Of a stretch of DNA of 64,000 nt, positions 3,618-62,424 are shown piece by piece. Within the stretch, counting starts at the first letter, position 1. Every line of letters begins with the position of its first letter. The DNA lies in the NCBI GenBank assembly GCA_009667805.1, contig CM019069.1, positions 95,329,204 through 95,393,203 of the forward strand. The letters are read 5' to 3'. The stretch comes from Leptobrachium leishanense (lineage: Eukaryota > Chordata > Amphibia > Anura > Megophryidae). The position numbers and the translations under genes are program-made. The notes beneath the pieces were generated by a model. The model worked only from the letters and a program-made list of their open reading frames with translations. It searched no databases and was not told the DNA's origin.

Positions 3618-6312
3618 CAGAAGATTGATTAGACGATAAAACAAAAAGGATAAAATGAGACAATTTTGGCACATCATTATCAAAGCTGCCTTCTTTCTGG
3701 GAAATGTTGAGGGCCATATACAAACATCAGAAGTCACAGAGGAAACAGAGTTTGTGTAGTAAGCTGAAAAGAGATGGATGCAGTTGGATGAAAGCTAAGG
3801 TCATTCAGGATGCAGCAAGCAAAACCAAGTGAAAAGCGCAAGGATGGGTTGATCCAACAACAGATGCGTCTGTGTAATATGGTTAATAGATAAAGTTATT
3901 TACTGCTCAGGGTAAGTTATTAGGGTTTTGAGGCTTCTCCTATGCTGTTATATCTACAATTTGTAATGTGGCTCATAGCTACATGGTAATTTCGGGTCGC
4001 TCTTTATTAAATTTGTACACTTGCTACTCCAGTTTCCATACTCAATTAAATTTTGGTGAATTCCTTCAACCTTTTACACTTCTACTCACCATTCTGGAAC
4101 CACTACTTCTTTAAGTGACACTGCAGGGACCTTTTCTAGTACAACAGCAGTGCTGAGAATTAGTGAAACCCTGCACAGCCTTGCGATTGCCAGTGCTCAG
4201 GACAGTCCGTTTCTATTACATTTTACCACCCAATACAGATAACCTGTCCCTTCCGGACATTTTGTGAGTGATTCAGCATACCCATTAGTGTGTTTCCTTC
4301 TCTGTCGTATCAATACAGACCCTCGAAGGTCAGTTACCTGATTAATAACGGAGATTTCTACTCTTTAGGGAATTGGAAGGCCGTATCACTGCATTACTTC
4401 ACTACCGTATCCTACTATATTTTTATGATTTTTTCTTTTTCCATATTTAACCATGCTCGTATATATCTTTTTATCTCTTTTTAGATCAAAAGTTTCATCT
4501 GCACTAACTAGGTCTACATCCACTGTTTTGTTATTACTATAAGGGTTACCCCCTATGACTGTAAGCCTAGGAATTAAATATACCCTTTACCTCCTTATCA
4601 TTTAGGTTTGCTCTTCATTCATTTCTTTAGTAATTACATCGCAATTTCTGCCTAATTTAAATAAAACAAAAAAAATATTTGTGAATATATTCGTAAAGAA
4701 CATTATTGGCCTTTGTTGTTCTGCTAGTAATCTGGCTTGGTTATAGGTAGAAAAACCTATAATGTGGTTTTGACTTTCCCGAGAAATTTCTTCTACAGAC
4801 AAGGGATGACAAAAGTACATTTTACACTGCTGCAAAATCCAGGCCGAATTTTAAAACAATGTAGTATGACCTATGGGGAATATTTATTTTAATGACCATG
4901 ATACAAAAAAAAAAATCAGATCTGCAAAATGAACAGAAATTTGAGAAAAATTAGTAGAAGAAACCAAGTAAATAGGTTGAACCAAGATATTGATAATTGA
5001 CTAAACTAACTTTTATCTGAACCTCCTGGCTGTCACTTCTAAGATTATGCTTTTGAAGCATAAGGAACCTTACAGCACAGCAAAGAGGAAGAAGAAATTA
5101 CCCTTTCTTGTGCGAAACTCATATGGTCATGGATACGAGATTGGTTTGTTAGAAAATAGCTGACCAGAGCAGTTTGAACGGTCAAGGGTATCTCTAGCAC
5201 ACAGTGAACACTAAGCAGGAATGCAATGAATCAGAATTCTCTGACACACCAAAATCAAATCAGACATGAATTTGTACAGTAAACTGGTCCAAATGTAAAG
5301 TAATCATTAGTGGAAGGATTCTTACAACAGGTTTGGGACACAGGAACATTAACCCTCAAGGCTGATGCGTTGGAGATGCAACAAAGGATTGTCTCTCCCA
5401 TACAACGAGCGTTATCAAGCAGAAGGCGTGAAAGGGGTATAAAGTAGGCTGTATACATTAATAATATGTGAAATGGATATATTACATTTAAAAATGTATT
5501 TTCAATTAACAATGATGAAGCTGCATATCTAACCGCCCACTTATATATGATAATTATTTAGTCAACAAATAAAAAAGGACCCTTTGAAATTGGTCGAATG
5601 ACTCTTGCAAAAATCTTGCTGACATTAGTTACCAATAATGACAGCTATAGATATGACTTTGCGCACACCTGATTGTTGAAGAGCCAACGTGTCATTGAAT
5701 CAGCAGACAACATATGAATGAAATAGTGCAGAGAGGGGTCAGAATTACAAAAGCTTTTCTTAAGCAAACACATCTTGAGAGATCTAGTATAGATATGCAT
5801 GAAAATGTAGGATAAATGTATGTCTTTTTTAAAGTGTTGCCATCAGTTTTGCTAGTAATGCATCCCAAATAAACATACTATTGTTTAAACAGAATTTGTT
5901 TCCATGAATGCGGAATTCCAAGAGCTGACAGAACAGGCAATGCGGTAATGGCAGATTCTAAAATACTCAATATTAGTAACAAAAATACATACGTCAAACA
6001 ATGAGTAGTTGAGGGAAACAGTGTTGGGCATTTGATTAATGATGCATAACCTTGAAAATATAGTGTGTCTGAATGTATTCATGGTCAGCAACTGATAACT
6101 TACATTTCAAAATCTGACAAACTTGGGTCTTCAGATGTTTGACTTAAGTCTCCAGGGACCTATCATAACAAGAAAAGAATCAATTTCATTTATATTTCAT
6201 AAAAGGAATGGCAGTTTATTTGATGTATATGTTGCAACTTACAGCACTACAAATACTAAATGACATGTTCTCATTCTTGTAACCAATAGAAACACTATAC
6301 AATGCTTGTGTG
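3618..6312. other. No recognisable gene
   Basis: About 2.7 kb of AT-rich unique-looking sequence between the CR1 3' end and the AT microsatellite. I see no convincing ORF, RNA gene or repeat end. Short ORFs here are no longer than chance predicts. Confidence 0.6.
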
Positions 6313-6318
6313 TGTATA

Positions 6319-6352
<34 letters not shown>
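6313..6352. repeat. (TA)n microsatellite
   Basis: An almost pure TA run directly before the left end of the Penelope-like element. A second TA run lies at 9354-9380 just beyond its right end, so the element may have landed in a TA-rich site. Confidence 0.9.
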
Positions 6353-6357
<5 letters not shown>

Positions 6358-6670
6358 GGCAATAGAGGATGCACTCACGGTCTTCCAAACAAATATAAAG
6401 AATTTATTTTACAAAACTCACATGGACATCTTCCAAACAAATATAAAGAATTTATTTTACAAAACTCACATGGACATCAACGTTTCGGCTCGCAGAGCCT
6501 TTTTCAAGATAAACAACACCAAATAACACATTTTTATACTAACAAACCAATGAATGAATTAACTCACCAATGTGTCAGAAATCTCACTAATGAGTTGCCC
6601 CACCCCATCCTGAATCAACAAGATTACGGGCGGGGGCCAACAATACCTTGATAATGGGACTGAATACTAA

Positions 6671-7582
6671 CAGGGTTATCCAAAGAGATTCGAAAAGTCA
6701 CCGCACGTTCGGTGACTTTTCGTTCTCTTCAATTCGGTTCCTTTTGCCGATTGCATTTCGGTGACCCTGCGGTGTATTCAGCAAGCAGCACAGGGTCCCC
6801 GAATTGCAGGGAAAAGCTGCCGTAAACCCACCGAAAACTAACCGAATGCATGCTGAAAACAAGAAAAAACATCTGGATTAACCTTTGAAAAAGACGAACA
6901 GGAGCCGAACAGGAGCCGAACATGAGCCGAATCACGCAGAGCCGAAGCAGCTGTGACATAGAGGAGGCAGTGAATAAATTAGAAAAACCATTTGTCTGAA
7001 TCTGGGAAAATGAAACGCTGTTTGCAAAGAAACTACTGAGCGAAAATGTCTGAAATTTTCACAGGAGGTCCAGGGAATGATAATAAAGAGGGCTGTTACA
7101 AAATAAATAAGTAAACTGAAAAAAAAAAAAAAAAAAATCGGACTTTTAATAAAAATAAAAAAAAAATCAGAAAAATGCTTAAAGTATCCTAAAAAATCTA
7201 TAAATAAAGAGACTCTTTACTGCAGAATTTTATAATGAATGGTTTATTAGATATTGAATTAAAATGGGAATATTTTTAACATTGAAGCCTATGGGATTCT
7301 CCTGAATAAATTTGCCGAATTAAACCACCGAATGGCAGGGCATTAGGGGAACCTTTCACTGCTGGTTTGTGTTCTCTGAATAGCCGAAGCAGTGCTTTTT
7401 CATGGGGATTTCACTGCCCTCGAACAGGGACCGAACAGTCACCGTATGTGCAGGCAATTCGACAGGATTTGGCGAATTGCCTGCTCTCTGGATAGCCGAA
7501 TGGCCAGGAAAGGTAACCGAACACTGATTTTCAGCGTTCGGTTACCTTTCTCAAGCAATTCGAATCTCTTTGGATAACCCTG
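6671..7582. mobile_element. PIF/Harbinger-like MITE with TAA duplication (copy A, 912 bp)
   Basis: The ends are CAGGGTTATCCAAAGAGATT and the matching inverted right end, with a second inverted stretch around the GGTTACC and GGTGAC blocks. Flanks are TAA (6668-6670 and 7583-7585). The right Penelope arm reads actaagaaaaaa in reverse complement, so the empty site with a single TAA is in the window. A 3-bp TWA duplication is typical of PIF/Harbinger. No transposase is present. Copy B is at 23757-24622 and a partial copy starts at 20249. Confidence 0.8.
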
Positions 7583-7835
7583 TAAGAAAAAAATATATAA
7601 CAATACAGAGATACAAAAATACAAAAAAGTTAAAAGCAAAAGATGAATGACTGAATATTATAACTAATATTGCAATGAAACAAAAATCTTCTTACACCAA
7701 CTGACCCAAAAAATATGAACCTCTAAATGTAAAGTCAGTGATTTAACAGGGAGATAAAAAAGATGTAAAGGAAATATATTCGTTCAAACCTCTAGGTGAA
7801 ACTGTATCTAGTTTCATTGTCCAGAACGCTTCTCT

Positions 7836-8813
7836 TTGCAACAATACCGTTTAGGTTACACATTACATCGAAAAGAAACAGCCAGGAACACTATTTTAAG
7901 AGCAGATAGTTTCCATCCACCGCACTTAAAACAGTCTTTGCCAGTGTCCCAATTCCTACGTACATTAAGAAACAATAGTGATGAGGAACGCTGTACTTTG
8001 CAATTAGCCGATACCTATAATAGGTTTAAACAGAGAGGTTATTCTGACAACGTTCTTCAGCAAGCCTTTGTGAAGGCTTGTGAAAAAATTTCATCCAAGA
8101 AAATAGAAAATCCTTTGGCCAATAGTAAGATGTACCTTCCTATGACATATCATTCCTATAGTCATAAAATCACACAAAATATACATCGACAATGGGAAAT
8201 GTTTAAATACGATAGTACTTTGCCCTCTAAATTTCATAACACTCCTGTAATAAGTTATAGGAGGTCCAGAAGTCTTCGTGACTGGTTGGTCAAGACAGAC
8301 CCAATTAAATCATATTCATCTAGTTCCATCTCTCTTCGGCATGGTTGCTTCAGATGCACAAGTTGTGTAACGTGTAGCCATATGCAGCCTGGCTCAACTT
8401 TTTCACATCCTAGGTCAGGAAAAATCTTTTCCATTCGTCATCATATTACTTGCACCACAGAGTTTGTGGTGTATTTAATTACATGTCCTTGCGGACTCTC
8501 TTATGTTGGAAAAACCGACCGACCCCTTAGAGATAGGATCCGAGGCCACAGGTCTAATATTACCACTGCCTTTAGAGATGGGTTTACAGATAAGCCTGTG
8601 GCAAAACATTTTTTGGCTTTACAGCATAGGTTACCTACACTCAAATTTAAGGCTATAGACCATATACCACCTTTAAAACGTGGAGGTAATCGGTCTCAAT
8701 TATTGTTGCAAAGAGAAGCGTTCTGGACAATGAAACTAGATACAGTTTCACCTAGAGGTTTGAACGAATATATTTCCTTTACATCTTTTTTTATCTCCCC
8801 GTTAAATCACTGA
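7836..8813 (+). pseudogene. Penelope-like protein, C-terminal part with GIY-YIG nuclease (5'-truncated)
   Basis: A 325-codon open frame with no ATG at its start; it opens at the junction with the inverted arm, so the reverse-transcriptase core is missing. Residues 20-45 hold a LRADSFHPPHLKQSLP stretch like the region after the RT domain in animal Penelope-like proteins. A four-cysteine cluster (C171, C174, C177, C180) is followed by the GIY-YIG core, VVYLI at 211-215 and LSYVGKT at 221-227, then LRDRIRGH (231-238) with the conserved Arg, and QREAFW with Glu294. The nuclease is known to nick target DNA for priming. The frame is open to the stop, but the truncation makes it nonfunctional alone. 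Confidence 0.8.
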
Positions 8814-13288: not shown

Positions 13289-15460
13289 CAGTGGTGTCAC
13301 TAGGGTCGGTGTCACCCGGTGCGGTAATTTATGGTGTCACCCCCCCCCCCCCGAGTTTTTCAGATTTTTTTTTTAACTACTCTTACTCCTAAATCAGTAC
13401 TCCCATATAACACTGAATGCTCATACACACAGCGCACATTACTGTGAGGTTTATTGCTGTGGAGCTCTCTCATATGCTCACACAACTTTTTGCCAACTGC
13501 CAGCAAGTACGTTGCCTGTTCGAAGGCAGTGAAAGCACACATGGATATATATTGCCCCCAGCAGCTCACCCATGGATATATATTGCCCCAGCTCACATAT
13601 GGATATATTGCGCCTCAGCTCACATATGGATATATTGCGCCTCAGCTCACACATGGATATATTGCCCCAGACCAGCTCACATATGGATATATTGCGCCTC
13701 AGCTCACATATGGATATATTGCGCCTCAGCTCACACATGGATATATTGCCCCAGACCAGCTCACACATGGATATATATTGCCCCAGACCAGCTCACACAT
13801 GGATATTGCCCCAGCTCTCATGGATATTGCCCCCAGCACACATGGATATGCCCCAGCTCCTCTCATGGATATTGCCCCAGCTCCTCTCATGTATATACTG
13901 CCCCAGCTGCTCTCATTGATAATGCTCCAGCTGCTCTCATGGATTTTGTCCCAGCTCATGGATATACTGCCCCAGCAGCTCATGGATATACTGCCCCAGC
14001 AGCTCATGGATATACTGCCCCAGCAGCTCATGGATATACTGCCCCAGCAGCTCATGGATATGCCCCAGCAGCTCATGGATATGCCCCAGCTCATTGATAT
14101 GCCCCAGCTCCTCATGGATATGCCCCAGCTCCTCATGGATATGCCCCAGCACCTCATGGATATGCCCCAGCACCTCATGGATATGCCCCAGCACCTCATG
14201 GATATGCCCCAGCACCTCATGGATTTGCCCCAGCACCTCATGGATTTGCCCCAGCTCCTCATGGATATGCCCCAGGCCCCCATGGATTTGCCCCAGCAGC
14301 TCATGGATTTGCCCCAGCAGCTCATGGATTTGCCCCAGCTCCTCATGGATTTGCCCCAGCAGCTCATGGATTTGCCCCAGCTCCTCATGGATTTGCCCCA
14401 GCTCCTCATGGATATGCCCCAGCACCTCATGGATTTGCCCCAGCAGCTTATGGATTTGCCCCAGCAGCTTATGGATTTGCCCCAGCTCCTCATGGATTTG
14501 CCCCAGCTCCTCATGGATTTGCCCCAGCAGCTTATGGATTTGCCCCAGCAGCTCATGGATTTGCCCCAGCAGCTTATGGATTTGCCCCAGCTCCTCATGG
14601 ATATGCCCCAGCAGCTCATGGATTTGCCCCAGCAGGTTATGGATTTGCCCCAGCTCCTCATGGATATGCCCCAGCAGGTTATGGATTTGCCCCAGGCCCC
14701 CATGGATTTGCCCCAGCAGCTTATGGATTTGCCCCAGCAGTTTATGGATTTGCCCCAGCTCCTCATGGATTTGCCCCAGCTCCTCATGGATTTGCCCCAG
14801 CAGTTTATGGATTTGCCCCAGCTCCTCATGGATTTGCCCCAGCTCCTCATGGATTTGCCCCAGCAGCTCATGGATTTGCCCCAGCAGCTTATGGATTTGC
14901 CCCAGCAGCTCATGGATATGTCCCAGCACGTCATGGATTTGCCCCAGCTCCTCATGGATTTGCCCCAGCTCCTCATGGATTTGCCCCAGCAGCTCATGGA
15001 TATGCCCCAGCTCCTCATGGATATGCCCCAGCTCCTCATGGATTTGCCCCAGCAGCTCATGGATATGCCCCAGCAGGTTATGGATTTGCCCCAGGCCCCC
15101 ATGGATTTGCCCCAGCAGCTCATGGATTTGCCCCAGCTCACCTCCTGGTCCTGGTCCCAGCACATGGATAACGGCCCAGGCAGCACCTCTCCGCCGCGTT
15201 TTTCGCTCCTTCTGAGCGTCCGGCGGCGCGCAGCTTGGGCGCTCGTCTGGGGGAGCCACGTGACCAGCCGCGATTGGCTGGTGACGTATTTCCTCCAGGC
15301 GAGCGCCGAAGCTGCATGCTTCGGACGCTCGCACGGAGCGAATACGCGGCGGTGGCGGGCGGTGGGTGAGACACCCGCCCTTAGGGTGACGGTGTCACCC
15401 TAAAGGCGGGTGTCACCTGGTGCGGGCCGCACCCACGGCCCCCACGTTACGACGCCACTG
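13289..15460. mobile_element. Nonautonomous hAT element expanded by a minisatellite
   Basis: Ends are CAGTGGTGTCAC and the inverted ...GACGCCACTG, flanked by the perfect 8-bp duplication GTCAAGCC (13281-13288 and 15461-15468), diagnostic of hAT. The left 230 bp matches the hAT composites at 32169 and 46251 up to ggcagtgaaag. After that point the interior is replaced by a tandem array up to about 15150. The right end (gtgtcacc...gtgcgggccgcacc) resembles the right end at 48530-48577. No transposase is encoded; the long open frames are a by-product of the array. Confidence 0.9.
13540..15150. repeat. Minisatellite, units 27 to 21 bp, inside hAT
   Basis: The left part has ~27-33-bp units (cacatatggatatattg), the middle 24-bp units (cagctcatggatatactgcc), and from about 14060 on some 50 units of 21 bp of the type cagctcctcatggatttgccc. 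Variants alternate cagctc, cagcag and ggcccc. Because 21, 24 and 27 are multiples of three and the unit lacks stops in several frames, both strands show artefactual ORFs of up to 649 codons. Confidence 0.95.
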
Positions 15461-21024: not shown

Positions 21025-21262
21025 GGCCATTGGCATTTCCAATGACACCAACCATGACACTCTAGCTACCACCGATAGGGTCCTTTGGAACCCCATATCT
21101 CCCTATCTCCACCACAGGGATTTCCATAGCAAATCCCTGGGCAACTAAGGGTTAGTTCCATAACTGACATGCATGACGAAGTCAGTGGGCGGGGGGAGAC
21201 CCTGGAGGCTTGGCTGACATCCAAAATGTTAGCCACCTCCGGTAGAAGTCCGCTATCCGGTG
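21025..21262. mobile_element. Fragment of TTAA hairpin element
   Basis: The text ccaccacagggatttcca, ggcttggctgacatccaaaatgttagcc and tatccggtgc matches the interior hairpins of the 1.2-kb TTAA family. Neither end is intact, and a Tc1 pseudogene abuts at about 21263. Confidence 0.5.
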
Positions 21263-22167
21263 CTGGATTGTGGACTGGCACCTAAGGGATGAAAGGATGC
21301 TGAGGCGCATAGTGCAAAGAGGTCACCAACTGTCTGCAGAGTCAATTGCTACAGACCTCCAAACTTCATATGGCCTTCAGTTTAGCACAAGAACAGTGCG
21401 CAGAGAGCTTCATGGAATGGGTTTCCATGGCCGAGCAGCTGCATCCAAGCCATACATCACCAAGTGCAATGCAAAACGTTGGATGCAGTGGTGTAAAGCA
21501 TGCCGCCACTGGACTCTAAAGCAGTGGAGACAAGTTATCTGGAGTGACGAATCGTGCTTCTCCATCTGGCAATCTGATGGACGAGTCTGGGTTTGGCAGT
21601 TGCCAGGAGAACGGTACTTGTCTGACTGCATTGTGCAAAGTGTAAAGTTTGGTGGAGGGGGGATTATGGTGTGGGAATGTTTTTCAGGAGCTGGGCTTGG
21701 CCCCTTAGTTCCAGTGAAAGGAACTCTGAATGCTTCAGCATACCAAGACATTTAGAGCTGGCCCCTTCCTCTTCCAACATGACTGTGCACCTGTGCACGA
21801 AGCAAGGTCCATAAATACATGGATGACAGAGTCTGTTGTGGAGGAACTTGACTGGCCTGCAGAGTCCTGACCTCAACCTGATAGAACACCTTTGGGATGA
21901 ATTAGAGCGGAGACTGAGAGCCAGGCCTTCTCGTCCAACATCAGTGTGTGACCTCACAAATGTGCTTCTGGAAGAATGGTCAAAAATTCCCATAAACACA
22001 CTCCTAAACCTTGTGGACAGCCTTCCCAAAAGAGTTAAAGCTGTTATAGCTGCAAAGGGTTGACCGACGTCATATTGAACCCGACGTCATATGGATTAGG
22101 AATGGGATGTCACTTAAATTCATATGCGAGTCAAGGCAGGTGAGCGAATACTTTTGGCAATATATTG
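21263..22167 (+). pseudogene. Tc1/mariner transposase pseudogene, 5'-truncated
   Basis: The frame opens inside the N-terminal helix-turn-helix ([19 protein letters not shown]) and shows [13 protein letters not shown], the first catalytic Asp in [10 protein letters not shown] (about 21538-21567) and [15 protein letters not shown] (21652-21696). After a deletion and stop near 21754, frameshifted sequence encodes FQHDCAPVHEARSINTW with the second Asp, then SPDLNLIEHLWDELERRL (21860-21913) with the third acidic residue. The right TIR CTTTTGGCAATATATTG ends at 22167 before TA. The left TIR is lost. Confidence 0.8.
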
Positions 22168-33130: not shown

Positions 33131-33202
33131 CAGTGGCGTCACTAGGGTTGGTGTCACTAAGGTGCGGTAACATATGGTGTCAACCCCCCGAGTTTTACAG
33201 CC
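33131..33202 (+). mobile_element. hAT composite, third left end, truncated
   Basis: CAGTGGCGTCACTAGGG starts a further copy in plus orientation. After about 70 bp it passes into Gypsy-type gag sequence. hAT sequence of the same family resumes at 43251, so this may be the start of the copy that ends at 48577. Confidence 0.55.
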
Positions 33203-33590
33203 TGCAGTAAACTTGCTGTGTTTGATTCTGTGCTCCATATAGTGCTTGACCTTTTTAATGAGCTTAAGAGGTTAATTGTATCCCTGAGTGTGGATAACTA
33301 TGCGGTTCCTCCCAGCAGAACCTCTGGGGGACCTCCCATGTTGGAGAAAGAAAGGCGCAGATTATATAACCTCTGCTATTACTGTGCTGCAGCAAACCAT
33401 AACATATTTTCATGTCCAGTAAAACCTAGACCCAGCATGTGCTGTCATCAAAAGGGTGAGACCCTGGTATCCACCTCTTGCAGCAAAAGCACTGACTCCA
33501 ACGCTCCCAAAGGAGCCATGATATTTAAGTCTTATACTGAGCTTCCTGTTTCTATGCTACACAGAGAGGTTGCTAGTTCCATGTCTGAGG
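33203..33590 (+). pseudogene. Gypsy-type gag zinc-knuckle fragment
   Basis: The frame encodes FDSVLHIVLDLFNELKRLI, then MLEKERRRLYNLCYYCAAANH with a CCHC knuckle in C-X2-C-X4-H-X4-C spacing (about 33370-33412). It is the same sequence as 52560-52925. In Ty3/Gypsy Gag this knuckle binds RNA. The fragment breaks off at 33590 where a hAT-like element begins. Confidence 0.7.
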
Positions 33591-33713
33591 GCGAATGCTA
33601 GGGTTGCCACCTTTTCTCGAAGCCAAACCCGAACACTCCGGGCACTGCGTGGCAAAATATTCACTCCCAGGTATACGCTCTGTCACACTGACATACACAG
33701 GCACTCACACACC

Positions 33714-44462: not shown

Positions 44463-46079
<1,617 letters not shown>

Positions 46080-51740: not shown

Positions 51741-52528
51741 TGTCACGTTTCCAATGGTTTCGGTCACGCCCCTGGTGGTGAGAGGGATTCAGGGCAGCTC
51801 TGCACGTTCTGTGTTTGGCTATACTGCTCCTGGATTCTACTGTGCTGTTCAGGTCTGGGGTCACATGTCCAATTAACCAGACCTGCTCCCTATTTAAATG
51901 CCAGCAGCACAGAGGCTCAGTGACCTGGTATGAGTTCTTAAGGTGACTTCTGCTCCTGTGTGTTCTTGTCCTGGTTCCTGCGTTGCTGCTAAGCATTCTT
52001 GCATTTATTTATATTCTGGTGTTGACCTCAGCTTTCCACTGACTATCCATTTCTGCCTGCTCCCTGTATATTGTATAACTGATCTGTTGCCAACCTCTGC
52101 GAGTCTGACATTCCTCCTGGTTCTGTATCCCCGGCTCTGATCCTGACTATTCTTGTATGTTCCTTGTTTTTTGTATTTTGTTCTCCATAGTTTGTCTTAG
52201 TATAGAGGCCAGTATAAGGACTTCTTCTCTTTAGTTTAAGATTCCTGTCTGTCTTGTTTTCCCCTGCCCTTTCTGTTCCCCTGGCTCTGTCATTCTTTGT
52301 GAGGTATTCATTAGTCAGAGGCCAGATCAAGGACCTTACCCGCTTAGGGATTTCTTTAGTTTTCTTCTATGCCCTCCTGTCCCTTGTGTTTCAGTCTGGT
52401 TCATTTCTTGTCTGGAATCTGTATTGTTTATCTGTGTTGTATTAAGCAAGCAACTAACCTGCCTCAAGGGCTACATCCCTCCTTGTATCAAGTCCCCACG
52501 ATGGCCCAAGTTGGCGGTCAGCATGACA
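51741..52528 (+). mobile_element. LTR-like 5' region of a Gypsy-type element
   Basis: Starts TGTCACGTTTCC and reads through a TATA-like ctatttaaatgcc (51889-51901) typical of LTR promoters, with T-rich sequence after it. A TG...CA right boundary can be set at gcatgaca (52528) or at gggctaca (about 52472); no second LTR is in the window to decide. Gag-like sequence starts just after. Confidence 0.55.
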
Positions 52529-52565
52529 TTATACCAGGTCCTTTACTGCCGCAGGTAAGCTTGCC

Positions 52566-52929
52566 GTGTTTGATTCTGTGCTCCATATGGTGGTGCTTAA
52601 CCTGTTTAAGGAGCTTAAGAGGTTAATTATAGCAGAACCTCCCAGCAGAACCTCTCGGGGACCTCCCATGTCGGAGAAAGAAAGGCGCAGATTATATAAT
52701 TTCTGCTATTACTGCACTGCAGCAAACCATAAAATAATTTTCATGTCCAGTAAAACCCAGACCCAGCATGTCCGGTCATCAGAAGGGTGAGACCCTGGTA
52801 TCCACCTCTTGCAGCAAAAGCACTGACTCCAATGCTCCCAAAGGAGCCATGGTTCTTAAGTCTTATACTGAGCTTCCTGTTTCTATGCTACACAGAGGTT
52901 TGCTAGTTCCATGTCTGAGGGCAAAGTTA
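52566..52929 (+). pseudogene. Gag-like fragment with damaged zinc knuckle
   Basis: Frames encode FDSVLHMVVLNLFKELKRLI and EKERRRLYNFCYYCTAANH, as at 33203-33590. The last cysteine of the CCHC knuckle is lost by a small change near 52738. A frame change then leads to SCSKSTDSNAPKGAM and SYTELPVSMLHR before the next frame opens at 52911. A possible Gag start ATG lies at 52501 (MAQVGGQHDIIPGPLLPQ). Confidence 0.6.
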
Positions 52930-54620
52930 GTGAATCCATGTGTCTCAGTAAGGCCGAAGTGGTTCAGTCTCATGGCAAACTCCCTGCTTCCATGTTACAC
53001 AGTGAATCACTGTTTCGCAGACCCTGCAATGGGTTAAGTAATACCACACGTGTCCAGGATGGAGGTGTTGCCACGAGTGTCCAGGGTGGTGGATATGCCA
53101 CAGGAATCCAGGGTGGCGATGATGCAACAGGTGCTCAGTGTAACTGTGAAACTGTTTGTACTAAGATTAGTAGTGTGCCCATTGTGCCCATGACCAACAG
53201 TGGAGCTACTGAAGTTCAACCACGAGGTGTGACTGTTCAGGCTGTCCTGTCTATGCCAAGCAGCGAGGCTATACGGTTTATACCAAGCAGCAAGGCTGTA
53301 CTGTTTCTGCCAAACGGCAAAGATAGTTATGCCGTAGGTTCAAAGTCTGGCGATAAGCCAGCAATGTCTTGTTCTGGCATTATGCCAGGGGTTCCTGTAT
53401 CTGGCTATAAGCCAGGGTGCTCCGTGTCTGGCTATATGCCAATTCCTGGCGATGCGCCACCCATGTCAATTCCTGGCAATGTGCCATTCATGCCCCAATT
53501 CAGCAGTGAGACTGTGATATTTAGTTCTGGAGATATGCCAGCCCTGTCTAGTCCTGGCGACATGCCAGCCATATCTGGTCCTGACAATATGCCAGCCATG
53601 TCTGGTTCTGGCGATATGCCAGCCATGTCTGGTTCTGGCGAGATGCCAGCCATGTCTGGTTCTGGCGATGAGCCAGTGCAGTCCCATTCTGGTGATGAGC
53701 CAGCGCAGTCCCATTCTGGTGATGAGCCAGCGCAGTCCCATTCTGGTGATGAGCCAGCGCCGTCCCATTCTGGTGATGAGCCAGCGCCGTCCCATTCTGG
53801 TGATGAGAAAGCCCTGTGTCATTCTGGTGATGTGCCATCCCTGTCCCATTCTGGTGATGTGCCAGCCCTGTCATATTCTGGTAATGTGCCAACCCTGTTT
53901 GATCCTGGCAAGATGCCAGTCCTGCCACGTTCTGGTGAGGTGCCAGTCCTGTCCGGCACTGGCGAGTTGCCACTCATGCTCACACTTGGTAATGTGCCAG
54001 CCGTGCCCATGTCGAGCTGCAAGGCAGCTGTGCCCATGTCAAATTGTATAACCACTGTGCCCATGTCCCACAGTACGTCTAAATTTGCTAAACTCAGCTC
54101 TGAGTCTGAGTACGCCAAATCCAGCTATGGGTCCGAGAATTCTAAATCTCATGGTAAGGCACATGTAGCCAAGTCTGACAGGGGTCACACCACTACCATG
54201 CCCTGTGGTACAGTCAACTGTTCCAGGTCTCGGTCTAAGAGGAGACGTAAAAGGGTAACCAGCTCTAATTGCTCTGGGTCCGAGGATGCCAAACCGCACT
54301 CTGGGTCTGAGGGTGCCAAACCGCACTCTGGGTCCGAGGATGCCAAACCCCGCTGTGGGTCTGAGGATGCCAAACCCCGCTCTGGGTCCGAGGATGCCCA
54401 GCAATATCGTGGAGTGAACACCATGTCCAGTCTGTTTGGGACTAGAATCCCTAAATCTAGTCCTGTTCCCGAGGGATATGTCTGGACGCCTAGGGGAACC
54501 TTGATCCGTGAAAAACACCAGTCCGTGTTCAGAAATTATCCCAATACCTGGATGTGTTTCAAGGAAGATTTTTCTGACGACTCAGATGAACGATTTTACT
54601 CTCCTGAAGGGGATCTTTAA
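52911..54620 (+). CDS. Uncharacterised 569-residue repeat-rich protein downstream of gag-like sequence
   Basis: Open from ATG 52911 to the TAA at 54618-54620 with no stop. Residues 15-32 (KAEVVQSHGKLPASMLHS) echo the KGAMVLKSYTELPVSMLH segment encoded just upstream. Residues about 203-365 are 18 successive 9-residue units, from SGSGDMPAM through SHSGDEPAQ to SHSGDVPAL. A basic RSRSKRRRKR stretch lies near 438-448, then five 9-residue units of the SGSEDAKPH type (about 455-498). The C-terminus is nonrepetitive (GYVWTPRGTL, TWMCFKEDF) and acidic. No known enzymatic domain, signal peptide or membrane segment is seen. It may be a Gag extension of a nonautonomous LTR element, or a domesticated or captured gene. 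Open frame in a repeat can arise by chance, but the units outside the repeats are open too. Confidence 0.5.
   Translation: MSEGKVSESMCLSKAEVVQSHGKLPASMLHSESLFRRPCNGLSNTTRVQDGGVATSVQGGGYATGIQGGDDATGAQCNCETVCTKISSVPIVPMTNSGATEVQPRGVTVQAVLSMPSSEAIRFIPSSKAVLFLPNGKDSYAVGSKSGDKPAMSCSGIMPGVPVSGYKPGCSVSGYMPIPGDAPPMSIPGNVPFMPQFSSETVIFSSGDMPALSSPGDMPAISGPDNMPAMSGSGDMPAMSGSGEMPAMSGSGDEPVQSHSGDEPAQSHSGDEPAQSHSGDEPAPSHSGDEPAPSHSGDEKALCHSGDVPSLSHSGDVPALSYSGNVPTLFDPGKMPVLPRSGEVPVLSGTGELPLMLTLGNVPAVPMSSCKAAVPMSNCITTVPMSHSTSKFAKLSSESEYAKSSYGSENSKSHGKAHVAKSDRGHTTTMPCGTVNCSRSRSKRRRKRVTSSNCSGSEDAKPHSGSEGAKPHSGSEDAKPRCGSEDAKPRSGSEDAQQYRGVNTMSSLFGTRIPKSSPVPEGYVWTPRGTLIREKHQSVFRNYPNTWMCFKEDFSDDSDERFYSPEGDL
53517..54002 (+). 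repeat. 27-bp minisatellite, 18 units, in frame
   Basis: Unit tctggtgatgagccagcgca plus gtcccat and variants. Central units are nearly identical and outer units diverged, as expected if the array grew from the centre. Confidence 0.9.
54273..54405 (+). repeat. Second 27-bp tandem repeat in the same ORF
   Basis: Five units of tctgggtccgaggatgccaa plus accgcac, unrelated in sequence to the first array but with the same 9-codon period. Confidence 0.9.
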
Positions 54621-55230
54621 TGACTAGTGGTTGTGTCCTGTTTCCTTCCAGGAAGTCAGACCAGCCGAGTATTCCCCCCGGACCTGTGGAGGTCTCCCTC
54701 TGAGGCTGCAGGGAAACTATGACGTGTGGGGGACGTCCTCCGCATGCCGCAGGGAATCCCCATGACATCTCCCACACATCATCTGCAGCCAAGGGATAAA
54801 ACTGGGATATATAATAATAACATTTTTTTTCTATTTTGTATATATTGTCTGGTTCATATATTAGGCGATCAGGTAAAGAGCATTTTGTAATAAAGTTTTT
54901 GTACTTTTCAGTAGACCGTGAAAGAAGAGGGAGCCGGTGTAGAGAATGGCATACAGTGGTTGGGTGGTGGCTGTATGCCTTATTCATAATATCTCTTGCT
55001 AGTCGTGTCTCTAAATGTAACATGTGTTACAATTTAAAATGGATACTTCGGTCGATAAAAACACAAAAATACAATGCCCATATTACTGGACAGCCCTGAC
55101 TCCTACCATGACAAAACACACATGTGCAGTTATGTCACACTCCTATCAATCAATGGTAAACAAACTACATGAGTGGGGTATCCTACCTTGGCTCTTAAAA
55201 AACCAGTCCCATTGAGTCCCAGTTTTAATA
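54621..55230. other. No recognisable gene
   Basis: Follows the repeat ORF; contains an inverted pair (gacgtgtgggggacgtcc, 54721-54738, and nearby complements). No 3' LTR could be identified. Confidence 0.5.
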
Positions 55231-60785: not shown

Positions 60786-62424
60786 CAGTCAGGTCCAGAA
60801 ATATTAGGACATCAACACAGTTCTAACATATTTGGCTCTATACACCACCGCAATGGAGTTGGAATGAAACAAACACAATGTGCTTTAACTGCAGACTGTC
60901 AGCTTTAATTTGAGGGTATGTACATCCAACTCAGGTGAACGGTGTAGGATTTACAGCAGTTTGCAGATGTGCCTCTCACTTGTTAAGGGACCAAAGGTAA
61001 TGGCTTCTCAGCTGTTCCATGGCCAGGTGTGTGATATTCCCTCATTACCCCAATTATAATGTGCAGATAAAAGGCCCAGAGTTCATTTTAAGTGTGCTAT
61101 TTGCATTTTTCAATCTGTTGCTGTCAACTCTCAAGATGAGATCCAAAGAGCTGTCACTATCAGTGAAGCAAGCCATCATTAGGCTGAAGAAACAAAACAA
61201 GCCCATCAGAGAGATAGCAAGAACATTAGGCGTGGCCAAAACAACTGTTTGGAACATTCTCAAAAAGAAGGAATGCACCGGTGAGCTCATCAACACCAAA
61301 AGACCCGGGAGATCGCGGAAAACAACTGTGGTGGATGACCGAAGAATTCTTTCCCTGGTGAAGAAAACACCCATCACAACAGTTGGCCAGATCAAGAACA
61401 ATCTCCAGGAGGTAGGTGTATGTGTGACAAAGTCAACAATCAAGAGAAGACTTCACCAGAGTGAATACAGAGGGTTCACCACAAGATGTAAACCATTGGT
61501 GAGCCTCAAAAACAGGAAGGCCAGATTAGAGTTTGCCGAACAACACCTAACAAAGCCTTCACAGTTCTGGAACAAGATCCTATGGACAGATGAGACCAAG
61601 ATCAACTTGTACAAGAGTGATGGGAAGAGAAGAGTGTGGAGAAGGAAAGGAACTGCTCATGATCCTAAGCATAACACCTCATCAGTGAAGCATGGTGATG
61701 GTAGTGTCATGGCGTGGGCATGTATGGCTGCCAATAGAACTGGTTCTCTTGTATTTATTGATGATGTGACTGTTGACAAAAGCAGCAGGATGAATTCTGA
61801 AGGACAATATTATCTGCTCACATTCAGCCAAATGCTGCAGAACTCATTGGACGGGACGGCGCTTCACAGTGCAGATGGACAATGACCCAAAGCATACTGC
61901 AAAAGCAAGCAAAGAGTTTTTGAAGGGACAGAAGTGGAATGTTATGCAATGGCCAAGTCAATCACCTGACCTGAATCCCATTGAGCATGCATTTCACTTG
62001 CTGAAGACAAAACTGAAGGGAAAATGCCCCAAGAACAAGCAGGAACTGAAGACAGTTGCAGTAGAGGCCTGGCAGAGCATCACCAGGGATGAAACCCAGC
62101 GTCTGGTGATGTCTATGCGTTCCAGACTTCAGGCTGTGATTGACTGCAAAGGATTTGCAACCAAGTATTAAGAAGGGAAAGTTTGATTTAGAATTATTAT
62201 TCTGTCCCATTACCTTTGGTCCCTTAACAAGTGGGAGGCACATCTGCAAACTGCTGTAAGTCCTACACCGTTCACCAGAGTTGGATGTACATACCCTCAA
62301 ATTAAAGCTGACAGTCTGCAGTTAAAGCACATTGTGTTTGTTTTATTCCAACTCCATTGTGGTGGTGTATAGAGCCAAAGATGTTAGAATTGTGTCGATG
62401 TCCCAATATTTCTGGACCTGACTG
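60786..62424 (+). mobile_element. Tc1/mariner element with long (~210-bp) TIRs
   Basis: TA at 60784-60785 and 62425-62426. Ends CAGTCAGGTCCAGAAATATT and its inverse; the inverted similarity continues through taaagctgacagtctgcag and ggtgaacggtgtagg to cttgttaagggaccaaagg, so the TIRs cover about 60786-61000 and 62213-62424. A frameshifted transposase lies between. Confidence 0.95.
61136..62171 (+). pseudogene. Tc1 transposase with two frameshifts
   Basis: From ATG 61136 the protein shows a helix-turn-helix region (KQAIIRLKKQNKPIREIART), KRPGRSRKTTVVDD, first catalytic Asp in WTDETKINLY (about 61579-61608) and KHGDGSVMAWACMA. Near 61800 a small deletion and near 61855 a small insertion throw the frame; it then resumes as QMDNDPKHTAKASKEF (second Asp, about 61870) and [15 protein letters not shown] (third acidic residue), ending in SRLQAVIDCKGFATKY at 62171. 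It is otherwise near complete. One Gly of the glycine box is Asp (HGDGS). Confidence 0.9.

Follow-up and report, generated by a model that had tools for sequence, protein, structure and literature searches.

LARDs and TRIMs are LTR-bounded elements whose enzymes must be supplied in trans and, to our knowledge, they carry no conserved open reading frame (ORF); the usual view is that RNA signals are all that a nonautonomous LTR element needs. The TR-GAG elements of plants are nonautonomous LTR elements that encode Gag only. In the Tf1/sushi group, self-priming by the 5′ end of the RNA has been reported (PMC10085805 and PMC6317226), and a table in a further paper gives the LTR end motif of sushi elements as TGTYANR...CNTNACA (PMC3601003). 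The L. leishanense genome paper (PMC6895153) uses LARD as a class.

The window, by which we mean the whole stretch of 64,000 nucleotides of Leptobrachium leishanense DNA analysed here, contains an ORF that is very probably, judging from its sequence and those of its relatives, the rear part of the sole protein of a pol-less, Ty3/gypsy-like LTR family, the window copy being an old one that has lost its 3′ LTR. The family shares with LARDs and TRIMs the bounding LTRs and the need for enzymes in trans, and differs from them in having an ORF under selection between subfamilies. With TR-GAG elements it has in common the LTRs and a single ORF without pol, here putatively gag-derived as judged by a zinc knuckle alone, but it has no capsid region and has long arrays of 9-10-residue units, a vertebrate host and a predicted self-primer. 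The LTR end motif, and a predicted RNA 5′ end complementary to a site behind the LTR, are common to this family and the Tf1/sushi group, from which it differs in lacking protease, reverse transcriptase (RT), RNase H, integrase, chromodomain and capsid. Within open-licence papers, we found no title or abstract opening describing the family. A large, recent vertebrate family keeping a fast-changing, capsid-less protein under selection between lineages would reveal what a retroelement has to encode itself in order to live off another one as a parasite.

The window copy and its reading frame

The features assigned to the family in the window are listed below.

33194..33595, + strand: second fragment of the same family, an N-terminal part with CX2CX4HX4C, 86% identical to 52542-52925
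51741..52528, + strand: 5′ LTR (TGTCACG...TGACA), 92% identical to the LTR at C2:210402011-210402781, with ends like those of young copies
51891..51898, + strand: TATA-like box TATTTAAA, some 30 nt upstream of where the RNA is predicted to start, with similar spacing in copies L009, L021 and L022
51922..51931, + strand: predicted self-primer GACCTGGTAT at what would be the 5′ end of the RNA, with its complement at 52531-52540
52501..52528, + strand: start of the element ORF within the LTR (MAQVGG...), homologous to the MAQAG start in L009-L013
52529..52910, + strand: broken N-terminal part, with the helix region and a degenerate CCHC-like knuckle (about 52704-52750)
52531..52540, + strand: putative self-primer binding site ATACCAGGTC beside the LTR, pairing with 51922-51931 and covarying in L011, L021 and L022
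52911..54620, + strand: reported ORF, by family comparison probably the rear of the one protein that the element encodes
53526..54011, + strand: array 1 (SGDxPAxSx), made up of 18 units of 27 nt
54222..54260 (approximate bounds), + strand: basic SRSRSKRRRKR stretch, matched in other copies
54276..54410, + strand: array 2, five units of 27 nt (GSEDAKPxS)
54465..54617, + strand: acidic VPEGY module at the C terminus, conserved across the family
54621..54646, + strand: last element bases, without the polypurine tract and 3′ LTR present in L025

The preliminary description had reported an open frame of 569 codons at 52911..54620 with 18 and five tandem units of nine residues, and this frame is real: it measures 582 codons from stop to stop (52872..54620) and 569 from the first ATG at 52911. 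When the 4-kb region was resampled 1000 times with a first-order Markov model, the longest open runs had a mean of 137 and a maximum of 289 codons, shorter than the frame in every case. Both arrays are present (53526-54011 and from 54276) with a period of 27 nt, and the openness inside them is partly trivial, since a 27-nt unit free of stops stays so when repeated; a second forward frame is likewise stop-free within both arrays. Outside the arrays the ORF is not free of repeats either, except at 54399-54619: in 52911-53340, 53341-53523 and 54007-54269, too, the strongest lag was 27 (z 5.3, 4.9 and 4.2, respectively), and the 27-nt period runs throughout the frame 52872..54620 except for its last 220 nt. 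Nor need the units of the two arrays be unrelated, as had been stated, because SGDEPAQSH and SGSEDAKPH are alike, by inspection, at five of nine residues. Differences among the units of array 1 fall on the three codon positions as 502/393/381, with no third-position excess. Pfam gave a single match to the window ORF, with an E of 0.18, which did not reach the cut-off.

Upstream of 52911, tblastn matches to the family fall in more than one frame and the coding sequence is shifted relative to the ORF behind it, and the knuckle of the window copy is degenerate, its last Cys being absent on inspection. In the sister fragment at 33194-33595, CX2CX4HX4C and the start of the repeat protein (...SSMSEG) share one frame, so that knuckle and repeat protein once formed one reading frame. 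As the upstream part matches the family and the sister fragment is in frame, the ATG at 52911 is probably an inner Met of a longer ORF.

The nearest relative of the window copy, L025, is 81% identical to it over 51769-54646, and among 39 other LTRs listed the best match to the window LTR is 92%, with the other 38 at 80-88%, which indicates that its subfamily is old. The alignment to L025 ends at 54646, where L025 continues into the polypurine tract and 3′ LTR; the window copy has no 3′ LTR. The place of the lost 3′ end is occupied by 54647-55030.

Copies of the family and the protein they encode

It had been suggested that further copies be sought in the host genome and compared for downstream LTRs, and both exist. 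A six-frame genome search with the ORF gave at least 126 matches, from the best 75 scored of 20,254 candidates; downstream LTRs are present, for example in L025, and complete copies have LTR pairs. We read twenty copies, chosen partly for long frames. The near-identical copies L009-L013 have 710-bp LTRs that are 98.9-100% alike, compared with 99.5% for the 863-bp LTRs of L022 and 96.2% for the 710-bp LTRs of L021, and all seven span 3.6-4.1 kb except L012 (5.2 kb), which carries an extra stretch. Perfect 5-bp target duplications accompany seven of the nine LTR pairs examined; that of L020 was seen by inspection, reading past the printed LTR end, L025 has none, and the LTR pairs of L016, L017, L018, L024 and L026 lie outside the nine. 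No pol-like ORF of 200 codons was found between the LTRs on the coding strand of L009-L013, L021 and L022, and the assignment to a nonautonomous LTR element is thus borne out. The protease, RT, RNase H and integrase of an autonomous Ty3/gypsy element are absent from the three ORFs searched with Pfam (L011, L012 and L022), in which no enzyme domain was detected, the L022 search giving one weak, extensin-like match in its proline-rich arrays.

In L009-L013, the ORF begins with MAQAG inside the 5′ LTR, and inspection of all five showed the polypurine tract AGGGAGGGGG directly before the 3′ LTR. Their ORFs measure, stop to stop, 841 (L009), 846 (L013), 881 (L012) and 883 codons (L011, whose protein has 844 residues from its Met), while that of L010 stops at 697. 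The junction between LTR and primer site has 167 exact copies in the genome, against none for the reversed control. In all 20 of these that were sampled, the first 421 bases belong to this LTR family (96.9-98.8%); on inspection, 13 of the 20 can be read onward from the junction in a single open frame and the remaining seven cannot. The 40 LTRs scored, of 2533 candidates, are 99-100% identical to that of L011, pointing to a recent burst.

The family protein consists, in order, of a helix, a CCHC knuckle, arrays of 9-10-residue units, an SR/RRRR stretch and an acidic VPEGY module, which is doubled in the young family; the helix region, CX2CX4HX4C, the SR/RRRR stretch and the VPEGY module are conserved across subfamilies. 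CX2CX4HX4C occurs in 13 of 13 aligned N-terminal parts. The preliminary description had suggested that the protein could be Gag-derived, and the one sign of this is the CCHC spacing: the Pfam zf-CCHC model does not match the family knuckle, there is neither a capsid before the knuckle nor a Pfam Gag match, and the 74 residues between Met and knuckle in P0004 are too few for a capsid. An AlphaFold2 model built from seven sequences was poor, with a mean pLDDT of 32; at this low confidence it contains helix 23-49 and part of a helix at 65-78, its better parts being the first of these helices and, at the VPEGY modules, two strand-strand-helix stretches.

Predicted self-priming and the search for a partner

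In four subfamilies (the window copy, L011, L021 and L022), the bases that follow the LTR can form 10-11 pairs with a site inside it, 155-193 nt from its start and about 30 nt downstream of a TATA-like box. The letters differ among the four and the pairing covaries. Shuffled primer sites were equally good in few of 2000 trials (12 for L011, one for L021, four for L022 and three for the window copy), and the primer duplex was present in all four cofolds, whose total energies were no better than those of shuffles. No tRNA-type primer site was seen by eye. The LTR ends of L009-L013 and L022, TGTCACG...CGTTACA or CGTGACA, fit the sushi motif. All four subfamilies have a self-primer of the Tf1/sushi type, at a predicted RNA start.

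Because the element has no enzyme genes, its enzymes must be borrowed. No autonomous partner was found among the junction copies sampled (20 of 167, 421 bases each) and the neighbours of L014 and L018. The gypsy element of L014 was rejected as a partner, as its LTR end matches its own LTR over just five bases and shuffles were as good in 971 and 998 of 1000 trials. Inside a gypsy LTR of L014 (reverse strand, 3767-6940; L031) lies a family copy without 5′ LTR and ORF start, flanked on both sides by CCTTG, which perhaps reflects integration of an incomplete copy or loss afterwards. The second internal region of L018 was likewise dropped, the LTR preceding it being the 3′ LTR of the adjoining family member; visual inspection of that strand showed no pol-like ORF in the region. 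Adjoining the family 3′ LTR in L018, at 6402-7967 (902-2464 of L029), is an ORF with a short N-terminal part, a CCHC knuckle (LCWYCASPNHWVSECP) and a different tail, perhaps representing a sister family that also lacks a capsid.

Selection and possible roles of the protein

At 10-35% divergence the pooled ratio of nonsynonymous to synonymous change (w) was 0.45 over 21 pairs of the N-terminal part and 0.42 over 24 pairs of the C-terminal part, compared with 1.01-1.14 in the two shifted frames, the pairs sharing history and not being independent. At 35-60% divergence the values were 0.21, near saturation, and 0.44, against 0.91-1.20 in shifted frames, and a few close pairs with few changes gave ratios above 1 (L018, L019 and L020, C-terminal part). 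Within the burst, 24 copies compared with L011 over their first 421 bases showed no stop-making substitution and an N/S of 2.93, against a neutral expectation of 2.37, which indicates neutral change after insertion. A ratio near one had been named beforehand as something that would refute the preliminary reading; the ratio is about 0.45 between subfamilies and near neutral within the burst. By its substitutions, then, the protein shows purifying selection between subfamilies and none visible within the young burst or the window copy. Array periods are multiples of three in 89 of 93 cases inside elements, against 18 of 59 outside; together with the lack of a third-position excess, this suggests that frame and step are kept while the letters change. 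The arrays thus offer a natural series that alters its letters yet holds a 9-10-residue step.

We tentatively propose that an LTR lineage has given up its capsid and all its enzymes, with a single disordered repeat protein in their place, and nevertheless continues to spread in bursts, that this protein, kept by selection between lineages, may act on its own RNA by packaging or in a condensate, and that a foreign Tf1/sushi element would give the particles and enzymes, the two sides of the self-primer pairing changing together in each subfamily. The element RNA would start at the self-primer and its 5′ end would fold back onto the site behind the LTR; partner enzymes of the Tf1/sushi type would then reverse transcribe and integrate it in trans. 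The likeliest role of the protein itself, again tentatively, would be that of a nucleocapsid-like, RNA-binding, self-associating protein that carries the element's own RNA into the particles of the partner: the helix, knuckle and SR/RRRR parts would hold the RNA, and the arrays would be a flexible spacer, growing freely and kept in frame.

The protein might instead play no role in mobility, RNA signals alone spreading the element as in a LARD, with the ORF a passenger whose frame lasts through growth of the 27-nt arrays. The unreduced N/S of the burst and the lack of a third-position excess in array 1 fit such a passenger, as do near-identical copies with broken frames (seven of 20 junction copies; nine of 80 copies scored with a database protein described below), but a w of 0.42-0.45 between subfamilies in the real frame only, and the retention of CX2CX4HX4C in 13 of 13 aligned N-terminal parts and of the SR/RRRR and VPEGY parts while arrays were replaced, make it unlikely. 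We are more doubtful that the protein forms a particle or condensate of its own, the arrays self-associating in place of a capsid. Successful amplification without a capsid region, and a model with helix 23-49 and long low-complexity arrays, are in keeping with this; structural evidence for it is absent, and the confidence of the model is too low to judge. Domestication of the window copy by the frog, with host selection keeping its ORF open, would account for an open frame in an old copy whose preceding stretch is shifted, but is extremely improbable: outside 53341-54006, the window-specific changes in the ORF (17 nonsynonymous, eight synonymous, no new stop) are near neutral by a yardstick of 2.37 that derives from another part of the ORF, and frames of at least 569 codons occur in 11 of the 20 copies read, which had been selected in part for their long frames (L015 would count as well on another tally). 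Within 53341-54006, where the alignment is unsure, the counts are 47 and 11. The window copy is thus, as far as its substitutions tell, without a sign of domestication and unlike a domesticated gag gene.

In other organisms, some elements carry captured genes, and an unusual repeat protein where pol would be expected would fit the captured gene that the preliminary description offered as an alternative. Capture of a host gene by the element is nevertheless very improbable, as no homologue outside the family was found in three protein-database searches (one of which scored the 7997 candidates sharing most words), Pfam and PDB sequences. Phage records gave no relative, and five pattern-matching stretches in IMG/VR are none of them relatives. 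Two protein matches, P0002 and P0003, were dropped, a composition rich in S, D, E and P being what they have in common with the family (checked for P0002). The sole UniRef relative presents the reverse case. This protein, P0001 (‘2-oxoisovalerate dehydrogenase subunit alpha’, ‘BCKDHA’, Leptobrachium leishanense), is element protein over residues 1-309, which match C4:245527550-245528476 at 100%, and differs from it in its Pfam domain PF00676 and enzyme name. On this comparison, P0001 is a gene model joined to a copy of the element, either because that copy has been exonised or because the model is wrong. This matters for annotation, since a database entry bearing the name of a metabolic enzyme already includes one copy. 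When P0001 served as query, 71 of the 80 copies scored (the best of 5502 candidates) were stop-free over its element part, and the other nine had a stop inside about 310 residues.

Elsewhere in the window, 13798-15137 holds the 21-nt unit CATGGATTTGCCCCAGCAGCT repeated about 63 times, and on each strand several frames are open there; the one frame checked had no Pfam match. Pfam also identified transposase ORFs or pieces, which we take to be of the Tc1/mariner type, at 44815-45858, 61001-61882 and 21246-21752, the first of them open over 348 codons.
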